Shown here: positions 3,111 to 35,262 of the stretch, piece after piece
Layout: each line of letters begins with the position of its first letter
Position numbering within the stretch: the first letter of the stretch is position 1
Source of the DNA: an uncultured Bacteroidales bacterium
GTDB taxonomy: Bacteria; Bacteroidota; Bacteroidia; Bacteroidales; UBA932
NCBI GenBank assembly: GCA_900318355.1
Contig: ONKE01000007.1
Coordinates: forward strand, 1 to 57,376
Direction: 5' to 3'
DNA: 57,376 nucleotides
The notes under the pieces: model-generated
Database searches by the model: none
Seen by the model: only the letters and a program-made list of their open reading frames with translations
Told to the model about the DNA's origin: nothing
Program-made: the position numbers and the translations under genes

Positions 3111-3126
3111 AGCATTAGGGTTATTT

Positions 3127-4689: not shown

Positions 4690-4710
4690 ATATCCGTATC
4701 TCCTTTATTG

Positions 4711-7770: not shown

Positions 7771-7776
7771 ACGATG

Positions 7777-7784
7777 CAAAGATA
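7777..7784 (-). promoter_or_regulatory. Bacteroidota -7 box (TATCTTTG) for susC operon
   Basis: On the minus strand TATCTTTG matches TAnnTTTG and is separated from the ATG at 7770 by only six bases, implying a very short or absent 5' leader. No convincing -33 TTTG was found. Confidence 0.55.
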
Positions 7785-7870
7785 GAAGATTGCACGAAGT
7801 AAAACTGACTGTATATTGACTTCTTTTAGCACAAAGTTGCATAGCCCCTCAAATTATGTCCAAAAAGGTA

Positions 7871-11463: not shown

Positions 11464-11518
11464 GGGGTTAATTGCGGTAAAAAGACGGTAAATTTATCCT
11501 GCGAAAGAAAAAAAACGT

Positions 11519-11526
11519 TATATTTG
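11519..11526 (+). promoter_or_regulatory. Bacteroidota -7 box (TATATTTG) for the sugar-metabolism operon
   Basis: TATATTTG matches TAnnTTTG in an AT-rich stretch after the symporter gene. It sits 96 bases upstream of the permease ATG at 11623 and starts a transcription unit that may run to the GH92 genes at 22299. Confidence 0.6.
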
Positions 11527-11539
11527 TGTGACGATGCGG

Positions 11540-11574
11540 GCGTGCGCCCTCAACGTCGCTCATCCTGCGCATGC
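11540..11574 (+). other. Possible leader stem-loop upstream of permease
   Basis: In the predicted 5' leader, GCGTGCGC (11540-11547) can pair with GCGCATGC (11567-11574), eight pairs with one G-U wobble and a 19-base loop. The leader is much more GC-rich than other intergenic DNA here. It also holds a 25-codon frame from ATG 11533. Whether either matters is unknown. Confidence 0.3.
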
Positions 11575-11622
11575 GCGCGGGTGCCGGACACGAAAACGAA
11601 AACCAAATTAAACCAAACCGAT

Positions 11623-12798
11623 ATGGGTAAGAAAAACCAATTCTTCACCACCATCCTTCCCGTGATGCTGGGATTCTTTGTCATGGGGTTCGTCGACCTC
11701 GTAGGCATTTCTACCAACTATGTCAAGGCCGATCTCGGCATGAGCGACTCGGTCAGCAGCCTGATAAGCGTCTCCTGCTTCGTCTGGTTCTTCCTGCTGA
11801 GCATCCCCACCGGCTTCCTGATGAACAAGTACGGCCGCAAGAACGTCGTGCTCGTCAGCTTCATCCTCAGCATGGTGGCGCTCGTGATCCCGATCGTCCT
11901 GAAAGACAGCTTCGCAGGCTATCTTGTCGCCTTCGCCCTCCTGGGCATCGGCAACACGCTCCTGCAGGTGGCCATGAACCCGCTGGTCTCCGAAGTCGTC
12001 AGCGGCGACCGCCTTACCGGCACCATCACCCTCGGCCAGTTCGTCAAGGCCGTGTGCTCCTTCCTGGCCCCGATCATCGCCGCAGCCTGCGTCGGCACGG
12101 CATTCGGCTGGCGCCTGCTCTTCCCCATCTACGCCGCGGTAACCCTCCTCGCGACCCTGTGGCTGTGGCTCTCCCCGGTTAAGAACACCCCTATCGAGGG
12201 CGCCGAAAAGGTTTCATTCGCCCGCACGTTCTCGCTGCTGAAAGACAACACCATCCTCCTCTTCTTCATCGCCATCCTCGTGCTGGTGGGTGTCGACGTG
12301 GGCATGGGCGTTTCCTTCCCCAAACTCATCATGGAGCGCTTCGACCTTCCCGTCGAGAAGGCCAGCCTGGGCAACAGCATCTACTTCTTCGCCCGTACCG
12401 TCAGCGCATTCTGCGGCGGCATCATCCTGATGAAGATGAACGAGAAAAACTTCTATCTGGTCAGCATCATCGCGGCCGCGGCCGGCCTCGTCGGCATGCT
12501 CTGCGCCCATGTCCAGTGGCTCATGGTGGCGAGCGTCATCCTCTTCGGCCTCGGCTATGCCAACCTCTTCAGCATCATCTTCTCCCTGGCCATCAAGCAT
12601 GTTCCCGCCCGCGCCAACGAGGTGTCCTCGCTGCTTGTGACCGGCATCGCCGGCGGAGCCATCGTGACCCCTCTCCTCGGCATCGTGACCGACGCCACCG
12701 GCACCCAGACCGCCGCATTCGTGGCAATGCTCGTCATCTGGGTCTACATGTGCCTGATCTTCGGCAAAGTAAGCAAAACCGCAAACGAATCTGCATAA
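11623..12798 (+). CDS. MFS hexose permease, FucP/GluP-like
   Basis: This is a 391-residue major facilitator with about twelve membrane segments, of the fucose/glucose-galactose proton-symporter branch (VDLVGISTNYVKADLGMSDS at the N-terminus; GIGNTLLQVAMNPLVSEV; the A-motif-like loop GFLMNKYGRKNVV). It would import a free monosaccharide across the inner membrane. The start at ATG 11623 was chosen over an upstream extension that encodes only the leader. The PfkB kinase follows after four bases, then the isomerase and MtlD, so the imported sugar is probably one that these enzymes process, mannose or a related hexose by inference. Confidence 0.85.
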   Translation: MGKKNQFFTTILPVMLGFFVMGFVDLVGISTNYVKADLGMSDSVSSLISVSCFVWFFLLSIPTGFLMNKYGRKNVVLVSFILSMVALVIPIVLKDSFAGYLVAFALLGIGNTLLQVAMNPLVSEVVSGDRLTGTITLGQFVKAVCSFLAPIIAAACVGTAFGWRLLFPIYAAVTLLATLWLWLSPVKNTPIEGAEKVSFARTFSLLKDNTILLFFIAILVLVGVDVGMGVSFPKLIMERFDLPVEKASLGNSIYFFARTVSAFCGGIILMKMNEKNFYLVSIIAAAAGLVGMLCAHVQWLMVASVILFGLGYANLFSIIFSLAIKHVPARANEVSSLLVTGIAGGAIVTPLLGIVTDATGTQTAAFVAMLVIWVYMCLIFGKVSKTANESA

Positions 12799-12802
12799 CG
12801 AA

Positions 12803-13807
12803 ATGGAACGCAAAGGTATTATTTCCGTCGGCAACTGGATTGTCGACTCGGTAAAATTTATCGAAGTATTTCCCAAGAAAGGCAACCTGACCACCATCGT
12901 CGGTCAGGATGAAGGACTTGGCGGCTGCGCCCACAACGTGCTGGCCGACCTGGCGTCTCTCAAAAGCGGCCTTCCGCTTTACGCCGGCGGCTGCATCGGC
13001 GACGACGACCACGGCAAGATGTGCCTCGACGCCTGCGACCGCCTCGGTATCGACCGCAGCAACCTGAAGGTCCTCAAAGGCGAGTCCACGTCCTACACCG
13101 ACGTCATGTCGGAAGTCAGCGGCGACGCCTCCCGCACCTTCTTCCACTGCCGTGGCGCCAATGCCAAACTGACTGTGGAACAGGTACTTTCATGCAAATC
13201 CAACGCCCGCATCTTCCACCTTGGCTACCTCCTCCTCCTGGACGAGCTCGACAAGGAAGACCCGGAATACGGCGTGGCCGCAGCGCGTGCCCTCGACGGC
13301 CTGCAGAAGCAGGGCTACGAGACCTCCGTCGACGTGGTCTCCGAGGAAGGCGACCGCTACCGCAAGGTCATCCTCCCTTGCCTTAAATACACGGACTACC
13401 TGATTATCAACGAGGTTGAGGCCGAAAATTGCCTCGGCATCGCCCTCCGTAAAGACGGCAAGGTCCGTCTGACCGAGGCCGAAGAGGCAGCCCGCCAGCT
13501 GCTCGACCTGGGTGTCGGCAAGATGGTCGTCATCCACTTCCCCGAAGGCGGCGTGGTCGCAACCAAGGACGGCCGCAGCTGCAGCGCCCCTTCCTTCAGC
13601 CCGTCCCGCGAGGAAATTGTTTCCACGGTCGGTGCCGGCGACGCGTTCTGCGCAGGCGCCCTCTACGCCATCCACGAAGGCTATGACCTCGAAGACCTTC
13701 TGGACTTCGCCGCGGCATGCGCCCGTTTCAACCTCTTCAGCACCACCTCCACCGGCGGCGCCCCGACCCTCGAAGTAATCAAAGAATTCATCAAATCCAG
13801 AAAATAA
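12803..13807 (+). CDS. PfkB-family sugar kinase (fructokinase candidate)
   Basis: This 334-residue cytoplasmic kinase belongs to the ribokinase/PfkB family. Visible motifs are the N-terminal sugar-binding region (ISVGNWIVDS; GLGGCAHNVLADLASL), the Asn-Glu motif in LIINEVEAENCLGI, and the second signature STVGAGDAFCAGALYA, in which Asp280 is the expected catalytic base. It lies between the permease and the isomerase in a run of genes 2-4 bases apart. If the isomerase makes fructose from mannose, this enzyme would make fructose 6-phosphate, the substrate of the adjacent MtlD. Xylulokinase-like or other hexose/pentose kinase activity is the alternative. Confidence 0.82.
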   Translation: MERKGIISVGNWIVDSVKFIEVFPKKGNLTTIVGQDEGLGGCAHNVLADLASLKSGLPLYAGGCIGDDDHGKMCLDACDRLGIDRSNLKVLKGESTSYTDVMSEVSGDASRTFFHCRGANAKLTVEQVLSCKSNARIFHLGYLLLLDELDKEDPEYGVAAARALDGLQKQGYETSVDVVSEEGDRYRKVILPCLKYTDYLIINEVEAENCLGIALRKDGKVRLTEAEEAARQLLDLGVGKMVVIHFPEGGVVATKDGRSCSAPSFSPSREEIVSTVGAGDAFCAGALYAIHEGYDLEDLLDFAAACARFNLFSTTSTGGAPTLEVIKEFIKSRK

Positions 13808-13809
13808 CC

Positions 13810-14487
13810 ATGAAACGTTCTGAAATCAACGCGATTATCCGCGAGAACAAAGCTATCTGCAAGAAGTTCCTCTTCCATCTTCCCGCATGGGCTGAATGGA
13901 CCCCTGCCGACTGGGCGAAAAAGGGCGAGGAGTGCATCGAAATCAAGCGCAACTGCATGGGTTGGGACATCACCGACTTCGGCAGCGGCGATTTCGAGAA
14001 GGTGGGTCTTTCCCTCATCACGCTGCGCAACGGCAACCCCGAGTTCGACCGCAAGCCCTACTGCGAGAAGATCATGATCGTCCGCGACGGCCAGGTGACC
14101 CCCACCCACTTCCACTGGAACAAAATGGAAGACATCATCTTCCGTGAGGGCGAAGGCGAATTCTGCATGAAACTCTGGAACGCCGATCCCAAGACCGAGC
14201 AGCTCATCGAAGGCGGCATCGTCAAGCTGAAAGTCGACGGCGTCGTGACCGAATTCGAGGCCGGCAAGACCTACCGCATCAAGAAGGGCCAGAGCGTGTG
14301 CTACACCCCGTACATCTACCACACCTTCTGGGCTGAAGGCGGCACCTGCCTCATCGGCGAAGTCTCCATGGTCAACGACGACAGCGCCGACAACCGCTTC
14401 TGGGAGCCCATCGGCCGTTTCCCGAAGATCGAAGAAGACGTTCCGGCCGAAGCCGTCCTCTGCAACGAATATCCTGAGCTTGGGTAG
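13810..14487 (+). CDS. D-lyxose/D-mannose isomerase family (cupin)
   Basis: The 225-residue protein matches the D-lyxose ketol-isomerase cupin family (YdaE-type). The metal site is recognisable as THFHWNKMEDII (two His and one Glu) with the later His in YIYHTFW. Family members interconvert D-lyxose and D-xylulose and many also act on D-mannose and D-fructose. With a sugar kinase two bases upstream and mannitol-1-phosphate dehydrogenase three bases downstream, in a locus with four GH92 genes, mannose to fructose is the most economical role; this is inference. No mannose-6-phosphate isomerase is seen in the window, which agrees with isomerisation before phosphorylation. Confidence 0.85.
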   Translation: MKRSEINAIIRENKAICKKFLFHLPAWAEWTPADWAKKGEECIEIKRNCMGWDITDFGSGDFEKVGLSLITLRNGNPEFDRKPYCEKIMIVRDGQVTPTHFHWNKMEDIIFREGEGEFCMKLWNADPKTEQLIEGGIVKLKVDGVVTEFEAGKTYRIKKGQSVCYTPYIYHTFWAEGGTCLIGEVSMVNDDSADNRFWEPIGRFPKIEEDVPAEAVLCNEYPELG

Positions 14488-14490
14488 ATT

Positions 14491-15702
14491 ATGAATGCTG
14501 TAATGTATGGCGGCGGCAATATCGGCCGCGGCTTTGTGGGAGCGCTTATGAGCCTTTCCGGCTACAGGGTGACGTTTATCGACGTCGCCGCTGCGGTGGT
14601 GGATGAGCTCCAGGCCAAGCAGAGCTACCCTCTGCGTTTTGTCTCCAACGAAGGGAAGGAAGACATCACCATCACGAACGTTACCGCCGTCAACGGCAAT
14701 GACACCGAGGCTGCCTCCGACGTCATCGCCCGCTGCGACATCATGGCCACGGCCGTAGGTGCGCGCATCCTTAAATTCATCATTCCCAATATCGTAGCCG
14801 GCCTGCGCAAGCGTTGGGCTGCCGGCGGCGAGCCCCTCAACATCATCATCTGCGAAAACCTCAACGACGCCAACAAGGTCGTCGAGGGGATGATCAAGGA
14901 GCAGCTCACCGAGGAAGAACGCCGCATCTTCGACGAGAAGGTGGGACTGGTCGAGGCCTCCATCGGCCGCATGGTGCCGGTCCAGACCGACGAGATGAAG
15001 GACGGCGAGCCCCTGCGCGTGTGCGTGGAGCGCTACGGCTTCCTGCCCGTCGACAAGGCGGCTTTCAAGGGGGCGATCCCCCAGGTGCGCAACATGGTGC
15101 CCTTCGAGCCGTTCGACTTCTTCGTAAAGCGCAAGCTCTTCATCCACAACATGGGACACGCCACCACCGCCTACCTTGGCGGCCTGAAGGGCGTGGAATA
15201 CATCTGGCAGGCCATCGACGACCCGGAAATCCGCGTAATCGCCCAGAACGCCATGCTCGAAAGCGCCCTTGCGCTGAGCAAACGCTACGGGGTCGACCTC
15301 GGCGGCATCCAGCTTCATATTACCGACCTCCTCGGCCGTTTCACCAATGCGGCCCTCGGAGACACCGTCGCCCGCGTGGGCGGCGACCCGGCCCGCAAGC
15401 TGTCCCCCGCCGACAGGCTCATCGGCTCGTCCCTGCTCGCCTTTGAGGAAGGCATCACCCCGGCCTACATCGCCGTCGGTGCCGCCGCAGGCGTCAAGCG
15501 CTATCTCGACGAGGCTGGCACGCCCCAGGGCGAAGAAGCCGCCGCGAACGTGCTCGGCGAAGTCAGCCAGCTGCCCGCAGACAGCCCCCTGAGGACTCTC
15601 ATCCTGCATTTCTACAAGATGATAGCCGAAGGCGCCTCCCTGGCCGACCTGCGCCGCGCCGCTGATGGCTGCAAACAAAAGTCCCTCAAGGATATAATCT
15701 AA
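14491..15702 (+). CDS. mtlD: Mannitol-1-phosphate 5-dehydrogenase
   Basis: This 403-residue NAD-dependent enzyme interconverts fructose 6-phosphate and mannitol 1-phosphate. It shows the N-terminal nucleotide-binding loop (YGGGNIGRGFVG) and the family catalytic region with Lys and Asn/His (KRKLFIHNMGHATTAYLGG). ICENLNDANKVVEG and VGLVEASIGRMVP also match the long-chain mannitol dehydrogenase family. It is slightly longer than the E. coli enzyme. No mannitol PTS is nearby, so in this context it either feeds mannitol 1-phosphate into glycolysis or drains F6P into mannitol; direction is not evident. The last base of its stop is shared with the ATG of the regulator gene (TAATG). Confidence 0.88.
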   Translation: MNAVMYGGGNIGRGFVGALMSLSGYRVTFIDVAAAVVDELQAKQSYPLRFVSNEGKEDITITNVTAVNGNDTEAASDVIARCDIMATAVGARILKFIIPNIVAGLRKRWAAGGEPLNIIICENLNDANKVVEGMIKEQLTEEERRIFDEKVGLVEASIGRMVPVQTDEMKDGEPLRVCVERYGFLPVDKAAFKGAIPQVRNMVPFEPFDFFVKRKLFIHNMGHATTAYLGGLKGVEYIWQAIDDPEIRVIAQNAMLESALALSKRYGVDLGGIQLHITDLLGRFTNAALGDTVARVGGDPARKLSPADRLIGSSLLAFEEGITPAYIAVGAAAGVKRYLDEAGTPQGEEAAANVLGEVSQLPADSPLRTLILHFYKMIAEGASLADLRRAADGCKQKSLKDII

Positions 15703-18170
15703 TGCGTAAGTTCGTCGTCAGTCTGCTGCTCGGGATGTCGCTCCTGGTCCCGGCTTCCGCCCAGGGCCTGCGTTTCTACGGCCTCGAGCGGCAGATCGAC
15801 GAACGTACCTCTCTCAGCCTGTTCTCCCGCAGGCGCGTAGTCTTCCACGACAGGCTCGACGTTTCCTTCGACCTGCAGACCTACAGCGCCTCGAGATACG
15901 GCTACCTCCTCCGTTTCCAGGACAAGGCCGACCCTTCCCGGATATGGAACATCTCCTACGACGGCCGCCTCGGCCCCAAGGTGTTCCAGCTCAACGAGGA
16001 AGGCCGCCGCTGCATTATCCGCCTCGAATTCGAGGAAGAGGAACTGCCCGATTTCCGCTGGACGCCGCTGACGGTTTCCTTCGACGCGAAAAACGACTAC
16101 GCCACGCTCTCGATTGGCGGCAAAAGCGCCTCTGCGTCAGTTGATCTGCCCATCAGGAAGATAGTCCCGCGCATACATTTCGGCCTCAGCGGCCACATGG
16201 TCGACGTCCCGTCCTTCGCCATCCGCAACCTCAAGATCGGCGACAACAGGAAGATTTGCAGTTTCCCCCTCAACGAGGTGGGCGGCGTAAAGGTCCACGA
16301 CTCCCGCGGCCGTCCTCTCGGAAGGGTCAACAACCAGGAGTGGCTTCTGAACCGCTCCATGTACTGGTCGCATCTGGCCGGCATGCAGTCGGATGCGGCA
16401 TCGGGCTACAACTACGACCCGGACAAAAAGACCGTAGTGCTCTACAACAACACCCTTGTCAAGTCGTATAACGTCGCGACGGGAAACACTACGGAAACGA
16501 AGACGGCCCCGTGCCCCGTCCACCTGCTCCTCGGTTATAACTACATCGAAGGCAGGCAGTTGATCGCATACGAACCGGAAGACTGGACCACCAAGCAGGT
16601 CACCCCGTCGGTCGCCTCGCTGGACCTGGATTCGCTGCGCTGGACGCTCCTGAGCACCGACAGGCTGAGAAATCCCCTCCACCACCACGCCTCCTTCAAG
16701 GACGCCCGCGGCCGCTACACCATCTTCGGCGGCTTCGGCAACCAGACCTACAGCAGAAGTTTCCACTGCCTTGACGACGGTGGCCGCTCCTGGATCACGC
16801 CCGACATCGACAGCACCCGGATAAGCCCCCGCTTCTTCGCCTCGGCCGGACGCGACCCCGAAGGGAAATACGTCTACATCTTCGGCGGAATGGGCAACGA
16901 GAGCGGCGAGCAGGTGGTGGGCCGTCAATACTACTACGACCTCCACCGTATCGACCTTGCCACCGGCGAGTGCGAGTGCATGTGGAGCCTCGACTGGAAG
17001 GGGCAGAACGTCGTTCCGATCCGCAACCTGGTGGTCATGGACGACTGCTTCTACACCCTCTGCTACCCGGAATATTTCACCGAATCCAACCTCCATCTCT
17101 ACAAGTTCAGCCTCAAGGACGGCAGTTTCGAGCGCCTCGGCGACCCGGTGACCGTGGTCTCGGACAAGATATGGTCGTCGAGCTCCCTCTACTACGACCC
17201 TGAACTTGAAAGGTTTATCGTTGTCACCCACAATGTCGACAACGACCTCACGTCCATCCTGGACATCTACTCGCTGACCTTCCCGCCGGTGTGGAAGACC
17301 CCGAGTCCGCCTTACCGCGGCCGCATGCTCCGGCTGTGGATCCCCCTGGGGCTGCTGATCCTCGCCCTGGGCATCGCCGGGACATGGTACCTGCGCAAGC
17401 GCCGCCGTTTCTCCTCGCAGGAAGAAGGCTACCAGAGGTCCAAGACCGACCCGCGCCGCAAGCTGTTCCACGAGGACCCCCGCCCGAGTTCCATCTACCT
17501 TTTCGGCCCCCTGGCCGTTATCGACAGGGACGGCAACGACATCATCGACCAGTTCACCAACCAGATCCGCGCGGTGCTCCTTCTCCTTATTAAATATAGG
17601 GAGACGGGCATGACCACCCTCCGCTTCAGCAGCATCATGTGGCCTGACAAGGAGGCGACCAAGTCCAAGGCCAACCGCGGCGTGGCGATCAACCGCGTGC
17701 GCCAGCTCCTGTCGACCCTCGACGGCGTAACGCCGGTCTTCGAAAACGGCGTCTACAAGCTCAATTTCTCCGAAGGAAGCTTCTGCGACTACATTTCCCT
17801 GGACGACGACCTGACGGACAAATCCAAACGCGAGGAGATGCTGCGGATCCTCTCCCGCGGGCGTTTCCTCAGCGACGAATCCGACGAACTCTTCGACTCG
17901 TTCAAGGGCAACGTGGAATCGAAGGTGATACCCTTCCTTACCGACGAGCTTACGACCCGCTTCAACGCCAAGGAATATCAGGCGGCGATAGAAATCGCGG
18001 AAATGCTGTTCCGCTACGACCCGCTGGACGAAAACGCCCTTAAATATATCGTCAATTCCCTGCACGCGCTGCGCCGGCGCGAAGACGCCATGGTTCAGTA
18101 CACACGCTTCATAACGGAATATCAACGCATCAACGACGAATCGTACCCCATCCCCTTCGAGAAGATATGA
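15702..18170 (+). CDS. Transmembrane lectin/Kelch sensor fused to SARP-type (wHTH-BTAD) regulator
   Basis: This is an 822-residue single-polypeptide sensor-regulator candidate. A signal peptide (ending ASAQ) is followed by a beta-sandwich region resembling a concanavalin/LamG fold (about 22-190). Next comes a Kelch-like beta-propeller (about 230-530; repeats YTIFGGFGNQTYS and YVYIFGGMGNESGEQ). One membrane helix is at about 545-565 (LWIPLGLLILALGIAGTWYL), followed by a basic stop-transfer stretch. The cytoplasmic part starts near residue 598 with a winged helix of the SARP/OmpR type (IYLFGPLAVIDRDGND, then the R-x-LLLLIKY and IMWPD pattern). It ends in TPR-like helices of the bacterial transcriptional activator domain (about 693-822). 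It overlaps mtlD by one base and the next GH92 gene by four. The role as glycan-responsive activator of this locus is inference from architecture and position. Confidence 0.75.
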   Translation: MRKFVVSLLLGMSLLVPASAQGLRFYGLERQIDERTSLSLFSRRRVVFHDRLDVSFDLQTYSASRYGYLLRFQDKADPSRIWNISYDGRLGPKVFQLNEEGRRCIIRLEFEEEELPDFRWTPLTVSFDAKNDYATLSIGGKSASASVDLPIRKIVPRIHFGLSGHMVDVPSFAIRNLKIGDNRKICSFPLNEVGGVKVHDSRGRPLGRVNNQEWLLNRSMYWSHLAGMQSDAASGYNYDPDKKTVVLYNNTLVKSYNVATGNTTETKTAPCPVHLLLGYNYIEGRQLIAYEPEDWTTKQVTPSVASLDLDSLRWTLLSTDRLRNPLHHHASFKDARGRYTIFGGFGNQTYSRSFHCLDDGGRSWITPDIDSTRISPRFFASAGRDPEGKYVYIFGGMGNESGEQVVGRQYYYDLHRIDLATGECECMWSLDWKGQNVVPIRNLVVMDDCFYTLCYPEYFTESNLHLYKFSLKDGSFERLGDPVTVVSDKIWSSSSLYYDPELERFIVVTHNVDNDLTSILDIYSLTFPPVWKTPSPPYRGRMLRLWIPLGLLILALGIAGTWYLRKRRRFSSQEEGYQRSKTDPRRKLFHEDPRPSSIYLFGPLAVIDRDGNDIIDQFTNQIRAVLLLLIKYRETGMTTLRFSSIMWPDKEATKSKANRGVAINRVRQLLSTLDGVTPVFENGVYKLNFSEGSFCDYISLDDDLTDKSKREEMLRILSRGRFLSDESDELFDSFKGNVESKVIPFLTDELTTRFNAKEYQAAIEIAEMLFRYDPLDENALKYIVNSLHALRRREDAMVQYTRFITEYQRINDESYPIPFEKI

Positions 18171-20278
18171 AACGCTTGACAATCATTTCCTTGCTGATCC
18201 TTGCGGCTTGCTCCGGCCCCGACATGACGCGCTACGTCAACGTGTTCGCCGGCACGGACGGAGGAGGTCACTGCCACCCTTGCGCCACCACTCCCTTCGG
18301 GGCGATCCAGGTCGGGCCGCAGACCGGCAACTTCGGCTGGGCCTACTGCGGCGGCTACCAATGGGCCGACAGCCTCATCCAGGGTTTCACGCAAAACCGC
18401 ATCAGCGGCACGGGCAGCTCCGAACTCGGCGACCTTCTCATGATGCCACTTACCGGCGAGCCCCTGCGTGACGACTTCTCCAGCCGTTTCGACAAGGCTA
18501 CGGAACAGGGCACTCCGGGCTACTATTCCTGCAACCTTACCGACTACGGCATCCGCGCCGAAGTGACCTGCACCCCTCACGTGGCGTTCCACCGCTACAC
18601 CTCCGACGGCGCCCCGATCCGCCTGATGCTCGACCTCCAAAGCGCGCAGGTCGGCTCGCGCAAAAGGATGTACAGCCGCGTGCTGGACGCCTCTCAGGAC
18701 TGGTCCGACTCGCTCCGGGTGACCGGCTACACCCATTCCAGCGCGTGGAACAACCGCACGATATACTACACCATAGAATTCAACAGGCCATACACCGTGG
18801 CCCAGGTGCTGGAAAAGCGCGACACCGCCGAGCTCATCCCCAGGAGGGTGCTCGATTTCGGGCCGTCGGCCGAGCCGCTTATGGTCAAGGTCTCCATTTC
18901 GGTATCGAGTGTCGAAGGCGCCCGCGGCAATGTGGAGAAAGAACTGCCGGGCTGGGACTTCGAAAAGGTCCGGAAAGACGCCAAGGCCTTATGGAATAAG
19001 TATTTATCCCGTATCGAAGTGGAGGCCGACCCCGAACATCGGCGCATCTTCTACACGGCGATGTACCACCTGATGATACATCCCGGCAACATTGCCGACG
19101 TCGGTGAGGAACCATTCTATTCCACCCTCTCGCTGTGGGACACCTTCCGCGCCGCTCATCCGCTCTATACCATCCTCGCCCCGGAAATCGTTCCCGGCGT
19201 CGTCAACTCCTTCCTGCGTTACTACGACGCCCAGGGCTTCTTGCCGATATGGGCCCTCGGCGGCACCGACAACTTCGGCATGATCGGCAACCATTCCGTC
19301 CCGGTCATCGTCGACGCCTGGATGAAGGGTTTTGAGGGGCTCAGGACCGAAGAGCTTTACGCTGCGATCCACCGTTCCCTGACCGAAGACCACATCAAAT
19401 ACGACTGGGGCGCCTACGACCGCTGCGGTTATTTCCCGATGGACGTGACGACGGTCGAAAGCGTTTCGCGCACGCTGGAATGTGGTTTCGACGACTGGTG
19501 CGCGGCCCAGATGGCGCGCGGCCTCGGCCACGACGACGATGCGGCGTTCTTCGAAAAACGCTCCGGCTACTGGCGCAACGTCTTCGATCCGGACTACCGC
19601 CTGATGCGCGCAAGGGACTCCCGGGGCAACTGGGACACGCCTTTCGAGCCGTTCCGCGTCGGCCACTGGAAGACCGGCGGCGCCTTCACCGAGGGCAACT
19701 CCTGGCAATACACCTGGCACGTGCTTCAGGACCCTGAAGGTCTCATGGAGGCAATGGGCGGCCGGGAAGCCTTCGTCCGCAAGCTCGACTCGCTCTTCGT
19801 GCTGAAGGGCGACCTGGGTAGCGGCGAGACGGTGGACGTAAGCGGCCTCGTAGGGCAATACGCCCATGGCAACGAGCCCAGCCACCACGTCATCTACCTG
19901 TATTCCCTGGCCGGGGAGAGGGACAAGGCGGCCGACCGCATACGCCAGGTGTGGGAAAGCCAGTATCACGACGGTCCCGAAGGCCTGAGCGGCAACGACG
20001 ACTGCGGTCAGATGAGCGCATGGTACATCTTCTCGGCGCTCGGCTTCTATCCGGTCAACCCCTGCGGCGGAAACTATGTTTTCGGCGCTCCGCAGCTCCC
20101 TCGGATGAAGGTGAAACTTCCTGGAGGCAAGGTGCTTACGATAGTTGCAGAGGGCTTTTCACCGGAGCAGAGGAGAGTTGAAAGCGTAACCCTCAACGGC
20201 GAGCCCCTCGAGGGCCCGGTCATAACCCACGGACAAATCTTGCAGGGCGGAACCCTGAAATTCAAAATGAAGCGATGA
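18167..20278 (+). CDS. GH92 alpha-mannosidase, lipoprotein
   Basis: This 703-residue exo-alpha-mannosidase belongs to the calcium-dependent inverting family GH92. A lipobox (LILAACSG, Cys15) indicates a lipid anchor, so it works at the outer membrane or periplasm. Family motifs are RYVNVFAGTDGGGHCHP at the N-terminus, AFTEGNSWQYTWHV with the expected catalytic acid Glu509, AHGNEPSHHVIYLY, and SGNDDCGQMSAWYIFSALGF with the base Asp611/612 region. The ATG overlaps the regulator stop (ATGA) and its own stop overlaps the next GH92 start, so translation of the three is probably coupled. Linkage preference (alpha-1,2/1,3) cannot be assigned. Confidence 0.92.
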   Translation: MKRLTIISLLILAACSGPDMTRYVNVFAGTDGGGHCHPCATTPFGAIQVGPQTGNFGWAYCGGYQWADSLIQGFTQNRISGTGSSELGDLLMMPLTGEPLRDDFSSRFDKATEQGTPGYYSCNLTDYGIRAEVTCTPHVAFHRYTSDGAPIRLMLDLQSAQVGSRKRMYSRVLDASQDWSDSLRVTGYTHSSAWNNRTIYYTIEFNRPYTVAQVLEKRDTAELIPRRVLDFGPSAEPLMVKVSISVSSVEGARGNVEKELPGWDFEKVRKDAKALWNKYLSRIEVEADPEHRRIFYTAMYHLMIHPGNIADVGEEPFYSTLSLWDTFRAAHPLYTILAPEIVPGVVNSFLRYYDAQGFLPIWALGGTDNFGMIGNHSVPVIVDAWMKGFEGLRTEELYAAIHRSLTEDHIKYDWGAYDRCGYFPMDVTTVESVSRTLECGFDDWCAAQMARGLGHDDDAAFFEKRSGYWRNVFDPDYRLMRARDSRGNWDTPFEPFRVGHWKTGGAFTEGNSWQYTWHVLQDPEGLMEAMGGREAFVRKLDSLFVLKGDLGSGETVDVSGLVGQYAHGNEPSHHVIYLYSLAGERDKAADRIRQVWESQYHDGPEGLSGNDDCGQMSAWYIFSALGFYPVNPCGGNYVFGAPQLPRMKVKLPGGKVLTIVAEGFSPEQRRVESVTLNGEPLEGPVITHGQILQGGTLKFKMKR

Positions 20279-22299
20279 AAAGAATCATTACGTTCCTGAC
20301 ATCCATCTGCGTTGCCGCGGCAGCATCTGCCGACAACTCGCGCTATGTCAACCTTTTCATGGGTACGGCCGGCGACCACGGACAGGTCACCCCCGGCGCA
20401 CAGATGCCTATGGGCCTGACGTCGGTCTGCCCCGACAGCCGTCCCGGCCAGCATGCAGGCTACGACTACGAGGTGCCTGAAATCTCCGGCATTTCCGTCA
20501 ACCGCATGAGCGGGACCGGCGGCGCCGGCGGTGGCGGCAACGTCCGCATCCTGCCCGCAACCCCCGGCACCAAAGTATGTATCGTAAAGGGCACCGAAAA
20601 GGCAGTTCCGGGCTACTACGAGACCGCTCTCGACAATGGCGTGAAGGTGTTCCTCACCGCGTCGAAACACTGCGCGATCGAGCGTTACGTGTTCCCGAAA
20701 GACGGCGACAAGGTGCTTTTCGTGGATTTCGACTCCGCCATCGACCACCGTCGCAACGAGTGCAGCAGCAAGCAGCTGAGCGACAGGACTTTCGAAGGAT
20801 GGGTCAAGAGTTCGACCGTGTGCAATTTCGGTGTCTACAAAAACTACTGGCGCCTGTGGACCAGCGTCCCCTTCTCGGCCGAGGTGGCCGAAGACGGCAA
20901 GACCGCCGTCCTTCGTTTCGACCCCTCCGTCCGCGAAGTTGAGGTACGCGTCGGGCTGTCTTCCATAGACGAAGACTCCGCCGGAGCCGAGCTTTCCGCC
21001 ATTGCCGGGAAATCCTTCAGCACCCTGCGCAAAGAGGCCGCCAAGGCGTGGTCGCGGGTGCTCGGCCTGGTCGACGTGAAAGGAAGCACCCTCGAGCAGC
21101 GCAAGCTCTTCTATACCAGTCTTTACCGCGTCTATCTCAGCCCCTTCGACGCCACCTTCTCCGGCATGTACCGCGGCACCGACGGCCTGGTCCGCACCGC
21201 CTCCGACTGGACGTTCATGAGCGGATGGAGCATGTGGGACACCTACAGGGCCAAATTCCCCATCATCACGCTTCTCGACCCCGATGCCGCCAGCGACATC
21301 TGCCGTTCGCTGGTGAGCCTCTACAAGACCGGCAAACTCAACTGGGCCACGATGAACGAGCCCACCCTTACCGTCCGCACCGAGCATTCGCAGATTACCC
21401 TCCTGGACGCATGGGTCAAGGGAGTCCGCGGCTTCGACATGGCCGAGGCGTTCCCCGCGATGGAAGCCGAAGCCGACGAAGGACACAAGCCCGGCGCCCG
21501 CAACGGCCTGACCCGCAACGCTCCTGACCAGAAGATGGAAACCATCTACGACCTCTGGGCGATGGGTCAGATCGCAGGGATAATCGGCAACAAGGAGGCC
21601 GCAAAGCGCTACGGCGAGGAAGCGGAAACCTTCTTCGAGCAGGTCTGGAAGAAGGAATTCATGACCATAACCCCCGACTTCGTCCGCATGCGCGGCAACG
21701 GCATGTACCAGGGCACGCGCTGGCAGTATCGCTGGGCCATGCCCGTCTTCGCCGACAAGATGAAAGAGTGGGTCGGCGAGGAGGAACTTGCCTCCCAGCT
21801 GAGCGAATTCTTCGACCGTCACCTTTTCAATCAGGGCAACGAGCCCGATATCCAGACCCCCTTCATGTTCAACCTTTTCGGCCATCCCGAGCGCACCGAT
21901 TCGCTGGTCCACGCCCTCCTGACCGACGAGAAGATGATCCATCTCTACGGCGGCAACGCCGAATATCCCGAGCCTTTCGTCGGCAGGGCGTTCCGCGACC
22001 GTCTTGACGGCTATGCACCCGAGATGGACGAGGACGACGGCACGATGAGCGGCTGGTACATGTTCTGCCAGATGGGACTTTACCCCGTGTGCCTGGGCAC
22101 CGACCGCTACGAGTTGTTCACGCCCCTTTTCAAGAAGATTGTCCTGCACCTGAAGGACCACGACGTCACGATAGTCCGCAAGTGCGATCCGGCATCGGCA
22201 GGGGGAGTGGAGGTGGACGGCCGCAGGCTTCCCGGCTTCTCCATATCTCACAAAGAGTTGACTGGCGCCAAAAAAATTGTGTACGTACAACAAAAATAA
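20275..22299 (+). CDS. GH92 family enzyme lacking the catalytic acid Glu (Gln479)
   Basis: This 674-residue GH92 protein has a type I signal peptide (ending AAASA), so it should be periplasmic. The N-terminal family motif is present (RYVNLFMGTAGDHGQVTPGAQMP) and the C-terminal base region is intact (MDEDDGTMSGWYMF, Asp585-Asp588), as is FNQGNEP. The motif that carries the general acid in the other three copies (T-E-G-N or T-E-N-N) reads MYQGTRWQYRW here, placing Gln479 at the acid position. In a characterised GH92 enzyme that removes mannose from mannose-1-phospho-6-mannose, a Gln also sits there, as I recall, because a phosphate leaving group needs no acid. The likely role is therefore mannosyl-phosphate uncapping; loss of activity is the alternative. 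Confidence 0.88.
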   Translation: MKRIITFLTSICVAAAASADNSRYVNLFMGTAGDHGQVTPGAQMPMGLTSVCPDSRPGQHAGYDYEVPEISGISVNRMSGTGGAGGGGNVRILPATPGTKVCIVKGTEKAVPGYYETALDNGVKVFLTASKHCAIERYVFPKDGDKVLFVDFDSAIDHRRNECSSKQLSDRTFEGWVKSSTVCNFGVYKNYWRLWTSVPFSAEVAEDGKTAVLRFDPSVREVEVRVGLSSIDEDSAGAELSAIAGKSFSTLRKEAAKAWSRVLGLVDVKGSTLEQRKLFYTSLYRVYLSPFDATFSGMYRGTDGLVRTASDWTFMSGWSMWDTYRAKFPIITLLDPDAASDICRSLVSLYKTGKLNWATMNEPTLTVRTEHSQITLLDAWVKGVRGFDMAEAFPAMEAEADEGHKPGARNGLTRNAPDQKMETIYDLWAMGQIAGIIGNKEAAKRYGEEAETFFEQVWKKEFMTITPDFVRMRGNGMYQGTRWQYRWAMPVFADKMKEWVGEEELASQLSEFFDRHLFNQGNEPDIQTPFMFNLFGHPERTDSLVHALLTDEKMIHLYGGNAEYPEPFVGRAFRDRLDGYAPEMDEDDGTMSGWYMFCQMGLYPVCLGTDRYELFTPLFKKIVLHLKDHDVTIVRKCDPASAGGVEVDGRRLPGFSISHKELTGAKKIVYVQQK

Positions 22300-22332: not shown

Positions 22333-22340
22333 TATATTTG
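22333..22340 (+). promoter_or_regulatory. Bacteroidota -7 box (TATATTTG) for GH92-SusCD unit
   Basis: TATATTTG lies in the 67-base AT-rich gap after the second GH92 gene, 26 bases before ATG 22367. It gives the third GH92 and the SusCD genes a promoter of their own. Confidence 0.6.
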
Positions 22341-22366: not shown

Positions 22367-24616
22367 ATGAAGAATATTCTGACCTGCCTGGCAGTGACTG
22401 TTATGGCGCTGGGACTCCAAGCCCCGGCGGCCCTTGGTGCTCCCACACCGGTCGATCAGGTCAGCACACTGGTCGGCACACTGTCAAAACACAGCCTTTC
22501 GACAGGTAACACTTATCCTGCGGTCGCGCGCCCCTGGGGCACCCACTTCTGGACCCCCCAGACCGGCGCCAACAACGACACCTGGACTTATGTATATACC
22601 GCCGATAAACTTCGCGGTATCAAGATGATACATCAGCCCAGCCCGTGGATAGGCGACTATGGCCAATTCAGCATAATGCCCGTTGCAAACGGCGATGCGG
22701 TCGACGAGGAAGCCCGCGCGAGCTGGTTCTCCCACAAGGCTGAAACCGCAACTCCATATTTCTACAGCGTCTATCTCGCCGACCACGACACCTTCCTGGA
22801 GATGACTCCGACCGAGCGTGCCGCGGCGTTCCGCATCACCTATCCGGAGCGCGAGAAATCCTATCTCGCGGTAGACGGCTTCGACGGCGGCTCCAAGATC
22901 CGCATCGAAGGCAACAGGATCCTGGGCGAGACGGTCAAGAACCGCGGCGGCGTGGCCCCCGGATTCAAGCTGTGGTTCGTCGTCGAGAGCGACACTCCGT
23001 TCGAAAGCGCCGACGTGTTGCAGCCCAAGGCAGGCAATGCCGTCGCCCGCGTCGGTTTCAAGACCTCCCGCGGCCAGCAGGTCGGCCTGAGGGTAGCCGC
23101 ATCCTTCGTCAGCGAAGAGCAGGCAATCCACAACCTTAATGAACTGGGCGATAAGGACTTCGACGCTCTCAAGGAAGAAGGTCGCAAGGTCTGGAACGAA
23201 ACCCTCGGCCGTATAGCCATCGAGGGCGGCACCCCGGACGAGCAGAAGACATTCTACTCCTGCCTCTACCGCAGCGTCCTCTTCCCGCGCGACCTCTCGG
23301 AGGTGACCCCCGACGGGCGCAGGGTCCACCGCAGCCCTCACGACGGTCAGGTCCACGACGGCTACTTCTTCACCGACACCGGCTTCTGGGACACTTTCCG
23401 CAGCCTTTTCGCCCTGCTGGACCTGGTATGGCCCGAGCAGGCGGCAAAGGTTCAGGAAGGACTTGTAAACCACTATCTTGAAAGCGGATTCCTGCCCGAA
23501 TGGGCAAGTCCGGGCCACCGCGGCTGCATGGTCGGCAACAACAGCGCCTCCGTTGTCGCGGAAGCCTACGTCAAAGGCCTGCGCGGCTATGATATCAACA
23601 CCCTCTGGGAGGCCGTCCTCCATGGCGCCCACGCCGTCCATCCTTCGGTCACGTCAACGGGCCGCGTAGGTTGGCAGCAATACGACGCCCTGGGCTACGT
23701 CCCTTGCGACATCGGCGTCAACGAAAGCGCCGCCCGCACCCTCGAATACGCCTACAACGACTGGTGCATCTGGCGTCTGGGCAAGGAACTCGGCAAGAGC
23801 GACGAAGAGCTCGCCCCCTACGCCAAGGCCGCCATGAACTACCGCAACCTCTACCGTGCCTCCGAAGGCCTGATGAGCGGCCGCAAGTCCGACGGCTCGT
23901 GGCCCGAGCCTTTCAACCCCTTCAAGTGGGGAGGCGACTTCACCGAAGGCAACGCCTTCCAATACAGCTGGTCCGTCTTCCACGACCCGGCCGGACTCAT
24001 CTCCCTCATGGGCGGAAATGATGCCTTCGGCGCCGCCCTGGACCGTCTTTTCGAGGTCCCTCCCATCTTCGACGAGTCCTACTACGGCTTCGTGATCCAC
24101 GAAATCCGCGAAATGCAGATAATGAACACCGGCAACTACGCCCACGGCAACCAGCCCGTCCAGCATGTGCTCTATCTCTATGACTGGTGCGGCCAGCCCT
24201 GGAAGGCGCAGGCGCGTATCCGCGAGGTCATGAAGAAGTTCTACAATGCCGGCCCCGACGGCTACTGCGGCGACGAGGACAACGGCCAGACTTCCGCCTG
24301 GTACGTTTTCTCGGCTCTGGGCTTCTATCCGGTCAACCCCGCTTCCGGCGAATATGCCATCGGCTCCCCGCTCTTCACAAGAGCGACCGTGTCGCTTCCT
24401 TCCGGGAAGAAGATCATCATCGACGCGCGCGGCAACCGCGCTGAAAACGTCTACGTCGGCAAGCTCTCCCTCAACGGACGCAAACACACCCGCAACTACC
24501 TGACCCACAAGCAACTCACCAGCGGTGCGAAGCTCCGTTTCAACATGACCTCCACTCCCGATACCGCCCGTGGAACGGCTCCGGAAGATGCGCCGTATTC
24601 CTTCAGCAAACTATAA
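22367..24616 (+). CDS. GH92 alpha-mannosidase, periplasmic
   Basis: This 749-residue GH92 enzyme has a cleavable signal peptide (ending AALGA). It keeps the catalytic acid Glu527 in DFTEGNAFQYSW and the base region GDEDNGQTSAWYVFSALGF (Asp636-Asp638). A family site that reads GNEP in the other three copies is GNQP here (AHGNQPVQHVLYLYDW), which suggests a different linkage preference. The N-terminal pattern (VDQVSTLVGTLSKHSLSTGN) also differs from the other copies. It is the first gene of the promoter-22333 unit, 20 bases ahead of SusC, so it is tied to whatever that transporter imports. Confidence 0.9.
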   Translation: MKNILTCLAVTVMALGLQAPAALGAPTPVDQVSTLVGTLSKHSLSTGNTYPAVARPWGTHFWTPQTGANNDTWTYVYTADKLRGIKMIHQPSPWIGDYGQFSIMPVANGDAVDEEARASWFSHKAETATPYFYSVYLADHDTFLEMTPTERAAAFRITYPEREKSYLAVDGFDGGSKIRIEGNRILGETVKNRGGVAPGFKLWFVVESDTPFESADVLQPKAGNAVARVGFKTSRGQQVGLRVAASFVSEEQAIHNLNELGDKDFDALKEEGRKVWNETLGRIAIEGGTPDEQKTFYSCLYRSVLFPRDLSEVTPDGRRVHRSPHDGQVHDGYFFTDTGFWDTFRSLFALLDLVWPEQAAKVQEGLVNHYLESGFLPEWASPGHRGCMVGNNSASVVAEAYVKGLRGYDINTLWEAVLHGAHAVHPSVTSTGRVGWQQYDALGYVPCDIGVNESAARTLEYAYNDWCIWRLGKELGKSDEELAPYAKAAMNYRNLYRASEGLMSGRKSDGSWPEPFNPFKWGGDFTEGNAFQYSWSVFHDPAGLISLMGGNDAFGAALDRLFEVPPIFDESYYGFVIHEIREMQIMNTGNYAHGNQPVQHVLYLYDWCGQPWKAQARIREVMKKFYNAGPDGYCGDEDNGQTSAWYVFSALGFYPVNPASGEYAIGSPLFTRATVSLPSGKKIIIDARGNRAENVYVGKLSLNGRKHTRNYLTHKQLTSGAKLRFNMTSTPDTARGTAPEDAPYSFSKL

Positions 24617-24636: not shown

Positions 24637-27600
24637 ATGAAAACGCCTAAAAAAACCTTGCTATTCATCCTGACGCTCCTGCTTGGCGTCCTGCCGGTCT
24701 TCGGCCAGGCCGTCAGGCTGGAAGGAACGGTGATCGACAGCAAGGGCGAACCTATTCCCGGCGTTGTCCTGCTCGGTCCGGGCAACACCAACGCCATTAC
24801 CGACATCGACGGCAAGTTCTCCATCAGCACCCGTCAGGGCGATGAAATCCAGGTGAGCTGCCTCGGCTACAAGACCTACTCATTCAAGGTAGGAAGCCGT
24901 GCGAAGATGACCGTCACCCTCGAAGAGGACAGCCAGAGCCTCGAAGAGTCCGTGGTCATCGGTTACGGTACACAGAAAAAGGCCGTCATCACGGGCTCGG
25001 TGACCAACATCACCAGCAAGACCATTGCCACGACCACTTCCAACGACCTGGTCAACAAGCTCCAGGGCAAGGTCTCCGGCCTTAACATCCGTAACAACAC
25101 CGCCACCCCGGGTGCCTATGACAACAACATCAACATCCGCGGTTTCGGTACGCCTCTCTACATCATCGACGGCATCAACCGCGATGCGACCGACTTCAAC
25201 AAGCTCAACGCCGAGGATATCGAGAGCATCACGGTCCTGAAAGACGCCTCCGCAGCCATCTACGGTCTCAATGCGGGTAACGGCGTACTCATCGTCACCA
25301 CGAAGACCGGCAACACGCACGGCGTGGCGCGCTTCCAGTTCAACGCCAACGTCGGTTTCTCCTCCCCTACCGACAGGGTCCGGATGTCCGACGGCTATGA
25401 ATATTACTGGCTTAGAAACGCCGCCAACATCAACGCCGGCGACGAACGTTACATCTCTCCGGAGGAGCTCGAGGCCTGGCGCACCGGAATCGACACCATC
25501 GACGAAAACGGCGACGTGGTCCGCCACGTTTCCACCAACTGGTACGACGCGACCTGCAAGCCGTTCTCCGTCCGCCAGGAATATTCCCTGTCGGCCGACG
25601 GCGGCGTGAAGGGCGTGAAATACTATTTCAACGTCAACTACTCCAACGACGACGGTCTGCTCCGTTCGGGTGACATCAACTACAGCAAGTGGAGCTTCCG
25701 CAGCGTGGTGACGGCCGACCTGGCCCGCGACCTCCAGCTCTCGGCCAACGTCTCCGGCTACATGGACGACCGCTGGGACCCCGCCGCCGACATGTTCAAC
25801 GTCTTCCGCGGCACCATCTGCTCCCTGCCTATCAAGCCTGTCTATGCTACCCTTGACGTGCCCCCGTTCAATGCCTGGCCCTATTTCAACGGCGTCAAGG
25901 ACGGTCAGTCCTACAACCCGGTGGCGCAGTCCTATGTTTCGCAGGGCGGCTACCACCACTACGTCAACAACGCCATCCAGTCGGTGTTTACCCTCAGCTA
26001 CAAGCCGTCCTGGCTGGAAGGCCTCGAGTTCAAGGGTACGGTCTCGTTCGACAAGCGCTTCGCCCAGACCAAGATCCTGAGGCGCAACTGGAAGATGTAC
26101 ACCTACAACACCATCACCCGCGACGTTGCCGACGAAGACTGGAACCCCAACGTCCAGATCAAGAACAACAACGACTACCGTCACTACTACAACTACCTGG
26201 GCCAGATTAATTTCAACCGCGAGTTCGGCAAACACCACGTCGGCGCTTCCGCCATCGTCGAGGCCTTTGTCTACGACCGCAACTGGACCGACATCAACAA
26301 ATACTTCGACTTCTACACCAACGACCAGATCGACTACGCGGGCGACAAGGACGCCAGCTCCGGCGGTAACGAAGACCACCAGAGGCGTATAGGCTTCATC
26401 GGCCGTATCAACTACGACTATGCCGGCCGCTACCTGCTCGAAGCCGCCGTCCGCAGGGATGGATCATACCGCTACCATCCTGATGTCCGCTGGGGTACCT
26501 TCCCGGTGTTCTCCGCCGGTTGGCGCATCTCCGAGGAGAAATTCCTCAAGGACAAGACCAAATGGCTGAGCAACCTCAAGCTGCGTGCCTCCTGGGGTAT
26601 TCTCGGCGAAGATGCCGGCGACGCTTTCCAATTCATCGAGGGCTATGGCCTGAGCCACGGCTCCGGCGGCTGGTGGGAATACAACCCCTCTGCCATCACC
26701 TACGGCGTGACATTCCCGGGCATCATCAACCCTCATCTGTCGTGGCTTAAATCCTACATGGCAGATATCGGCCTTGACATCGGTCTGTTCGGCAACAATC
26801 TCAACCTGAGTTTCGACGTCTTCCGGAAAGACAAGACCGGCCTCCTGGCCCGCAAGAATTCCGAGCTCCCCAACACCTACGGCGCCTCTTTGCCTCAGGA
26901 AAACCTCAACTCCAACCGTACTCTCGGTCTCGAGTTCTCCTTCGAGTGGAAACACCGTTTCGGCGACTTCTTCTACTCGGTTTCCGGCAACACGACCATC
27001 GCCCGCACCATGAACATGTATGTCGAGCGCGGCGCCTATTCCAGCTCCTGGGAACGTTACCGTGGCGGCACCGACTACCGCTGGACCGGCCTGGCCTGGG
27101 TCTATAATCTCGTAGGGCAGTTCCAGCCCGGTGAAACCGATCCTTACCAGTATATCAACGATCCCGATACCCCGATCTACAGCGGAGGCATAGGCAACAA
27201 GTACATCCAGCCGGGCGACTGGATTTTCGAAGATGTCAACGGCGACGGCCGCATTACCGGCGACGACTACCGCCCGATCACCTTCACCCCAAGCTCGCAG
27301 CCTATCATCAACTACGGCCTTACCCTTTCCGGCAGCTGGCGCGGCCTTGATTTCAACATCCTTTTCCAGGGTGCAGCGGGCTTTACGGCCTACTACAGCG
27401 GCCCTTACGCCGAACCGTTCTGGCTTGGTGCCAACGTTCCGGCCTACCTGATGGACTCCTGGCATCATGAGGATATCTTCGACTCCAAAAGCGCCTGGGT
27501 TCCCGGCACTTTCCCCGCCATCCGCTCCATGGACAAGGCTCCGTACACCAACGCGGCGAGCAGCTTCACCTACAAGGACTGCTCCTACGTCCGTCTGAAG

Positions 27601-27813: not shown

Positions 27814-27823
27814 GAGCATGGCT

Positions 27824-35243: not shown

Positions 35244-35262
35244 CTGAAATTTGCGAAAAGAT

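Follow-up and report, generated by a model that had tools for sequence, protein, structure and literature searches.

A putative transmembrane SARP-type regulator with a Kelch-bearing exported sensor and a candidate promoter site at alpha-mannan loci of Bacteroidota

SARPs are known mainly as soluble antibiotic regulators of actinomycetes, while activators of the ToxR/CadC type carry a cytoplasmic winged helix-turn-helix (wHTH) domain at the N terminus, one membrane helix, and a periplasmic sensor at the C terminus. Here, we discuss a protein with features of both, the transmembrane SARP-type regulator encoded on the + strand at positions 15702–18170 of a 57,376-nucleotide stretch of DNA from an uncultured Bacteroidales bacterium (contig ONKE01000007.1 of assembly GCA_900318355.1). 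This whole stretch is referred to as the window. The open reading frame (ORF) is intact, starts with ATG, and encodes 822 amino acids. Taken together, the domain architecture and fold, the gene neighborhoods, and the promoter site of relatives suggest that the protein is a membrane-anchored one-component SARP activator of alpha-mannoside loci, a reading to which we assign a probability of roughly 0.8.

In the available text of PMC10936776, the SARP domain of AfsR is described as a side-by-side dimer on DNA that engages region 4 of the sigma factor. This source and the accessible part of PMC4393881 give the rule that SARP sites are direct repeats spaced by 11 or 22 bp, the 3′ one lying 8 bp from the −10 element. 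The Bacteroidetes-specific regulator classes of polysaccharide utilization loci (PULs) listed in 2013 are, in the portion of PMC3878776 at hand, SusR-like proteins, hybrid two-component systems (HTCSs), and extracytoplasmic function (ECF) sigma/anti-sigma pairs. There, SusR of Bacteroides is presented as a one-component activator of a PUL that spans the membrane and has its sensor in the periplasm; its DNA-binding domain does not significantly resemble any known one, and the sites predicted for it consist of direct repeats whose centers are 67 or 77 bp apart. The HTCSs are chimeric two-component proteins with an AraC-like output, and two of them, BT2628 and BT3786, regulate alpha-mannan-activated loci (same source and portion).

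In the models, the C-terminal module of the window protein is by fold a SARP. It consists of an OmpR-type winged helix (residues ~596–692; 17487–17777), in which residues 652–670 would form the recognition helix, followed by a TPR-like BTAD domain (residues ~695–811; 17784–18134). Modeled alone, the C-terminal 233 residues reach a pLDDT of 94.5 and a pTM of 0.87, and Foldseek finds six PDB matches to this model at E ≤ 0.001, each of them to EmbR or AfsR (~240 aligned columns, TMq 0.61–0.64). Pfam BTAD falls below its cut-off in the full-length protein (E 0.0014 at residues 719–803; 19.5 versus 22.1 bits) and passes just over it when the C terminus is searched alone (22.2 bits, E 2e-4). Relatives were collected by an alignment-based scan of genome contigs, which gave 134 proteins, and the best 80 of the 134 were kept for locus counts; a single-protein query scan of the same contigs gave no match. 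Seven of the 80 (L028, L030, L041, L060, L061, L065, and L091; L numbers denote loci and G numbers genomes) were omitted from the structure alignment because of near-duplication, odd starts, an open end, or an X residue, and in one case by oversight. Among the 74 family C-termini searched with Pfam at E ≤ 0.1, BTAD is found in 30 and Trans_reg_C in 12. The family C-terminal profile reaches ordinary BTAD proteins, as all six weak matches given to Pfam are BTAD (E 1.7e-6 to 2.1e-25), and against PDB sequences it returns only weak TPR-like, saposin, and other matches (best E 0.0036). The initial annotation had placed a winged helix and a BTAD domain at the C terminus, and the domain searches, which could have come back without them, bear this out.

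The AlphaFold2 model of the full-length protein, built with 74 sequences (pLDDT 88.9, pTM 0.64), has strands at ~23–210, a propeller at ~223–526, a helix at 540–571, the winged helix at ~597–689, and helices at 696–811. The chain begins with a predicted signal peptide (residues 1–20; 15702–15761; model helix 2–20, hydrophobic segment 4–23), whose ASA-Q cleavage site was read by eye from the sequence. A beta-sandwich follows (residues ~22–210; 15765–16331; model strands 23–210) and then a Kelch-type beta-propeller (residues ~223–526; 16368–17279). The propeller is recognized by Pfam Kelch (E 6.2e-13 at residues 301–441; 49 bits versus a cut-off of 50), by another Kelch model above its cut-off, by PDB profile matches, and by Foldseek, in which the full-length model matches the Kelch domains of KLHDC3 and LZTR1. 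The LamG-bearing NanB and neurexin also match, but with a root-mean-square deviation near 20, and therefore these matches give no more than a hint that the sandwich is LamG- or ConA-like; Pfam finds no LamG in the window protein. Thus, of the exported lectin-like and Kelch part that had been proposed, the Kelch half stands and the ConA/LamG-like half is a suggestion. The single transmembrane helix anticipated near residues 545–565 is found at residues 540–561 by hydropathy (17319–17384), and LRKRRRF follows it. Exactly one hydrophobic segment lies beyond residue 60 in all 74 aligned proteins, the side C-terminal to it is the more positive in 58, and an N-terminal segment exceeds the threshold in 50. 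By this model-based layout, the topology is type I, with the sensor N-terminal and the wHTH C-terminal.

How does this architecture compare? Like AfsR and EmbR, SARPs of Actinomycetota, the protein combines an OmpR-type winged helix with BTAD; what sets it apart from these is that its SARP module stands at the C-terminal end, tethered to the membrane and joined to an exported sensor with a Kelch propeller, and that the host belongs to another phylum. As in ToxR/CadC, a one-component protein has, by sequence and model, one membrane helix between an extracytoplasmic (periplasmic) sensor and a cytoplasmic OmpR-type wHTH. However, the modeled order is reversed, with the signal peptide first and the wHTH last, BTAD is present, and the sensor is of another kind. 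The models are consistent with a protein that works like a ToxR/CadC-type transmembrane activator with a SARP output and that by topology is not a ToxR. The ToxR/CadC-like arrangement put forward in the initial annotation is thus retained for the single-helix one-component layout, while the domain order differs. The nearest functional precedent in the phylum is SusR, which, as far as it is described in the consulted portion of PMC3878776, has the same membrane-spanning one-component layout with a periplasmic sensor; the SARP output and the 11-bp repeats discussed below set the window family apart from SusR by description only. In acting on alpha-mannan loci, the regulator would resemble BT2628 and BT3786 as presented there. 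The regulator has no Pfam match to the histidine kinase, receiver, or AraC domains that an HTCS carries in one chain, nor to Sigma-70 region 2/4 or FecR-type domains as in ECF sigma/anti-sigma pairs.

The loci of the nearest relatives point to alpha-mannan. A GH76-, GH92-, or GH125-like gene lies within the fetched flanks in 73 of the 80 loci, and several of the remaining seven are short contigs. Among the 80 loci, the labels counted are SusC (59), GH76-like (58), SusD (56), DUF3823 (49), U729 (39), CPreg (31), GtaA glutaminase (24), GH92 (22), and GH125 (10). The identity behind the GH76, GH125, GtaA, DUF3823, and CPreg labels comes from one representative each, and the other labels from window queries; genes were called by a simple longest-ORF script, so that starts and operon heads are approximate. 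The regulator-linked GH76-like protein matches solved GH76 structures, and the genomes have three to six GH76 matches each (10 genomes checked), some of which are fragments of one gene. In the wider family, GH92-like genes occur in 7/24 loci versus 0/16 arbitrary stretches of the same genomes; this comparison covers 24 of 26 homologues and omits L022, a tiny contig, and the window itself. As judged from these gene labels, the substrate class of the regulator loci is probably alpha-mannoside.

Three families in these loci merit a description of their own. The regulator-linked GH76-like protein of ~485 aa (L027:6514–7968, − strand) is a divergent GH76 of greater length, matched in two pieces. 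The adjacent CPreg (L027:7971–9836, − strand; ~608 aa) has carboxypeptidase-regulatory-like repeats and opens many of these operons. U729 is a 729-aa family of alpha-mannan loci (e.g., L032:7565–9751, − strand). Its representative matches nothing in Pfam or NCBIfam, and what it matches among PDB sequences is at chance level; the family is possibly an undescribed enzyme family.

The operons of the relatives share a conserved site, TTAACCC-N4-TTAACCC-N5-TTAAyC. An upstream neighbor is divergent from the regulator in 66 of the 80 loci; 57 of these upstream regions pass a length filter and 40 remain after removal of near-duplicates (46 with other limits). In a motif-blind scan of the 40 regions for direct repeats at spacings of 8–89 bp (82 tried), 11 bp ranks first, with 18 regions versus 7.9 expected (z 4.15), followed by 21, 23, and 12 bp. 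One sequence, GGGTTAA or GGATTAA when viewed from the regulator side, makes up most of the repeats spaced by 11 or 12 bp. In the 46 regions, GRTTA pairs have periods of 12, 11, and 23 bp in 29, 26, and 24 regions, respectively, versus 0.1–0.2 expected, whereas the biggest excess on the opposite strand is period 19 in five regions (period 23 in one). These scores overstate the significance because related loci are not independent events.

In 1.617 Mb of locus DNA there are 53 strict matches, and the 7.8% of it called intergenic holds 47. These 47 share one orientation, TTAACCC reading toward the adjacent operon, and lie 60–245 bp (median 100) from its first codon; the head carries a mannan-locus label in 46 and is an unlabelled small ORF in one (L081). 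The site is found upstream of 53/65 CPreg, GH76, GH92, or GH125 heads versus 3/276 other heads (37/49 versus 3/246 without near-duplicates). By head, the counts are CPreg 20/25, GH76 23/27, GH92 6/9, GH125 4/4, U729 6/29, SusC 2/18, and GtaA 0/9 (the last three together 8/56), and 0/76 for the regulator in its own orientation. It is present at the operon head even when the regulator lies more than 10 kb from it. Of eight family-level loci outside the first set, picked by regulator homology (L201–L208), seven (L202–L208) have the repeats, in each case between the regulator and its divergent neighbor; L208 has one repeat pair, and in L205 the regulator is broken up into two ORFs. The repeats were not found in L201, in L199 and L200 (contigs of L069 and L033), in the paralogues L107 and L108 of the window genome, or in the window.

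Genome-wide, the pattern GGGTTAW-N4-GGGTTAW has 16 matches in 12 of 14 genomes. All 12 have at least one match at the regulator locus (13 in total), and three matches lie elsewhere, as many as the reversed control pattern gives; these three were set aside, one being inside a called gene and two having no mannan enzyme among the labelled neighbors. In most loci from Cytophagales, regulator and operon are not divergently arranged. Among 10 genomes searched there (one an Alistipes), five (G682, G688, G995, G997, and G999) have a match ahead of the CPreg-GH76-SusC-SusD operon, three have none, and in two the matches are elsewhere or uninspected. The fair count is 5/10 genomes because five of six stretches were fetched owing to a pattern match there. 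In G995, the site falls within a small called ORF, ~140 bp ahead of CPreg, and the L246 stretch, fetched for its GH76 gene, has a weaker repeat pair at the same place. Matches in G996 and G685 and second matches in G688 and G997 fall outside the inspected set; the second G688 match agrees with a match inside the U729 gene of L055. Many G999 matches are an 11-bp tandem repeat judged unrelated to the site. Such dispersed 11-bp tandem repeats, of the type GGGTTATCTAC, occur on several G999 contigs (among L215 and L221–L240). Repeats spaced by 22 bp, of the type GTGCGCACGTTT and unlike the TTAACCC site, lie ~248–295 bp before the regulator in L085.

In operon direction, the promoters read T-tract, TTAACCC, N4, TTAACCC, N5, TTAAyC, and then the Bacteroidota −7 element, TAnnTTTG. 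In 29 of 43 promoters (43 of the 53 entered this test), a −7 match of at least 5/6 begins 9–10 nt after the last TAAyC, i.e., 8–9 nt after the heptamer; the shuffled control gives 0.49 per position and a maximum of 5. The 29 comprise 25/32 three-repeat, 3/9 two-repeat, and 1/2 four-repeat promoters. Hence, the relatives' promoters have the anatomy expected for a SARP, with direct repeats 11–12 bp apart and the last one 8–9 bp from the downstream promoter element, as for AfsR and EmbR in the available descriptions, although the promoter type (−7, TAnnTTTG) and the repeat (TTAACCC) differ. We regard this agreement with the published rule as the best argument for SARP function of the C-terminal module. 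On sequence grounds, the TTAACCC site is likely the DNA target in the relatives, and the regulator family would be the protein that binds it.

These data suggest the following model. The exported sandwich-Kelch part would face the periplasm, where it most likely binds alpha-mannoside oligosaccharides, and the single helix would cross the inner membrane. Ligand binding might bring SARP modules together or free them from an inactive state, so that they would sit side by side on the 11-bp repeats. The cytoplasmic winged helix and BTAD would thereby bind direct repeats that replace the −33 element, ~8 bp from −7, and recruit RNA polymerase to the mannan-utilization operon. By extension, the window protein would control its own operon, with its ectodomain as a glycan sensor.

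A number of observations weigh against this model. In the window, the strict pattern is absent even with one mismatch allowed; the intergenic DNA of the window has no GRTTA pair, and none of four heads examined has a repeat with the required geometry. Two candidate −7 elements, both TATATTTG on the + strand, lie at 11519–11526, ahead of the operon that may hold the regulator, and at 22333–22340, upstream of GH92-SusC-SusD, and neither has a SARP site at the expected distance. The putative recognition helix of the window protein is KSKANRGVAINRVRQ, versus the KVKNSRGVTINHLRK type in most site-positive relatives, and it is plausible, from this difference, that the window regulator uses a changed DNA site. 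Near relatives of the window copy (its own C6 paralogue, L033, L069, and L201) also lack canonical repeats, and the single GH76-like match of the window genome is on a contig other than that of any regulator copy. No homologue found exceeds 42% identity over the protein length, even in the same genus (one partial match reaches 45%). For several loci with this common type of recognition helix, the stretch that was fetched contains no site; many belong to Cytophagales and have their operon head beyond that stretch. In the wider family, the repeats are present in just 3/17 upstream regions, and SusC/D linkage (16/24 versus 7/16 arbitrary stretches) is not clearly above background, which is why the linkage claim is not rested on SusC/D. 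The expectation that homologues are linked to glycan loci is accordingly borne out by the nearest relatives and only weakly by SusC/D in the wider family.

Two further sets of repeats were considered. Those at 11464–11500 of the window (GGGTTAATTGC GGTAAAAAGAC GGTAAAT) were rejected, being in the wrong orientation and off the expected distance, and triple 11-bp repeats are not unusual in the window. Ahead of the SusC gene divergent from the C6 paralogue, TAAGCGC/TAATTGT/TAAGCGT, spaced by 11 and 12 bp, lie 7 bp before TAAATTTG; 3/300 shuffles are as good, and this head was the best of eight tried besides two positive controls, which makes the case weak.

Other explanations have to be considered. 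The ligand might instead trigger cleavage near the membrane, after which a soluble SARP domain would diffuse to the promoter. The linker between the helix and the SARP module is of low confidence (pLDDT <50 at residues 567–582), and the L153 genome has a 259-aa C-terminal-only form beside the membrane form, so the module can exist alone; yet the site adjoins the regulator gene in many loci, as fits membrane-tethered binding, and we regard regulated proteolysis as doubtful. In our view it is unlikely that the ligands of the ectodomain are proteins or cell-envelope components and not glycans, given the strong link of the nearest relatives to alpha-mannan enzymes. In its favor, the closest Kelch structures, KLHDC2 and KLHDC3, bind peptides according to the accessible part of their descriptions, GtaA-type glutaminase genes are frequent neighbors, and the LamG identity of the sandwich is uncertain.

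It is very unlikely that the repeats are the site of another mannan-locus regulator and that the transmembrane SARP controls something else. The site was found statistically, and both its absence from the window's own operon heads and the site-less loci with the common recognition helix would agree with such a division of labor, but the repeat geometry is the published SARP geometry and, in L202–L208, the site lies between the regulator and its neighbor. Finally, since the sites overlap with the −33 region, a protein sitting on them might instead keep polymerase off until ligand binds. A repressor is nonetheless highly improbable, since repeats that replace the −33 element and lie 8–9 bp from −7 in 29/43 promoters are expected for an activator, and AfsR, in the available text of PMC10936776, acts by contacting sigma and polymerase. 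Collectively, these comparisons favor the membrane-anchored SARP activator of alpha-mannoside loci.

The family appears to represent a further class of PUL regulator that is neither HTCS nor ECF/anti-sigma, unless SusR itself is related. In fuller form, we find it quite probable that Bacteroidota have a class of inner-membrane SARPs that use no phosphorelay or sigma factor of their own, carry interchangeable exported sensors (sandwich-Kelch, LamG behind other N-termini, and short forms), and follow a TTAACCC promoter code, 8–9 bp from −7, that predicts alpha-mannan operons across several orders. The initial annotation had suggested a different class of locus regulator; the SARP output and the Kelch-bearing sensor are new for PULs, while a membrane-spanning one-component layout already exists in SusR, as the consulted portion of PMC3878776 indicates. 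In the open-access literature, outside of which most subscription papers lie, nothing in print was found that ties BTAD, SARP, or Kelch to Bacteroides, Bacteroidetes, or Bacteroidota, and the regulator words do not occur in the available text of PMC9213526, a paper on alpha-mannan and PULs. What emerges is a SARP module coupled, in a phylum other than that of the actinomycetes, to an exported sensor and to carbohydrate loci, and its DNA geometry appears to be unchanged although the promoter type differs. Many alpha-mannan loci thereby gain a candidate regulator and a candidate promoter site, and the latter can be used for regulon prediction.

The window genome has three copies of the regulator. 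Matches are found in 16/294 genomes of an order-level sample and 19/299 of a family-level sample, and the C-terminal profile at E ≤ 1e-8 hits 30/392 genomes of the phylum, weak general-BTAD matches included. The kept relatives include Bacteroides, Dysgonomonas, Paludibacter, and Alistipes (Bacteroidales), several Cytophagales, Chitinophaga, and Sphingobacterium. Other exported N-termini also precede the SARP module (L016, L017, L018, L023, L156, L196, and L197). In L016 and L017, LamG comes after an unassigned region or extension, which has no Pfam match and which may resemble PI-PLC; L156 has LamG, and L018, L023, L196, and L197 are short forms with no informative Pfam match. In L153 (2–1087 and 1426–2202, + strand), the 259-aa form, which has no membrane helix, adjoins the membrane form.

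Thus far, we have focused on the regulator; its gene is a member of a codirectional run on the + strand. The run includes a GluP-like sugar transporter of the major facilitator superfamily (MFS; 11524–12798), a PfkB-type sugar kinase (12803–13807), a D-lyxose/D-mannose isomerase-like protein (13717–14487; E 1.1e-72), and a mannitol-1-phosphate 5-dehydrogenase-like protein (14491–15702; E 1.3e-80), all labelled by NCBIfam below curated cut-offs. The true start of the MFS gene is probably downstream because the listed TTG start overlaps the candidate −7 element. After the regulator come, also by NCBIfam, a GH92 alpha-mannosidase-like gene (18167–20278), two further GH92-like genes (20275–22299 and 22367–24616), SusC/RagA (24637–27813), and a SusD-like gene (27818–29761; E 3e-7, below the curated cut-off). 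The regulator start codon shares one base with the stop codon of the ORF at 14491–15702 (the last base of that stop), and its TGA overlaps the ATG of the first GH92 gene (ATGA at 18167), so that the two genes share 4 bp. These overlaps and the labels agree with the earlier description of a gene abutted on both sides, with sugar-metabolism genes before it and GH92 after it. The run suggests release, uptake, and catabolism of mannose from alpha-mannosides.

A fourth GH92 gene of the window lies at 35251–37458. Just before it, at 33843–35240 (+ strand), the GH92 locus encodes a 466-aa protein with no match to Pfam (E ≤ 1e-5) or NCBIfam (E ≤ 0.01). At the other end of the window, positions 183–7842 (− strand) hold a second SusC/SusD pair together with a Recep_L-domain protein of 1025 aa; a GH2-like gene at 7884 runs divergently from them.

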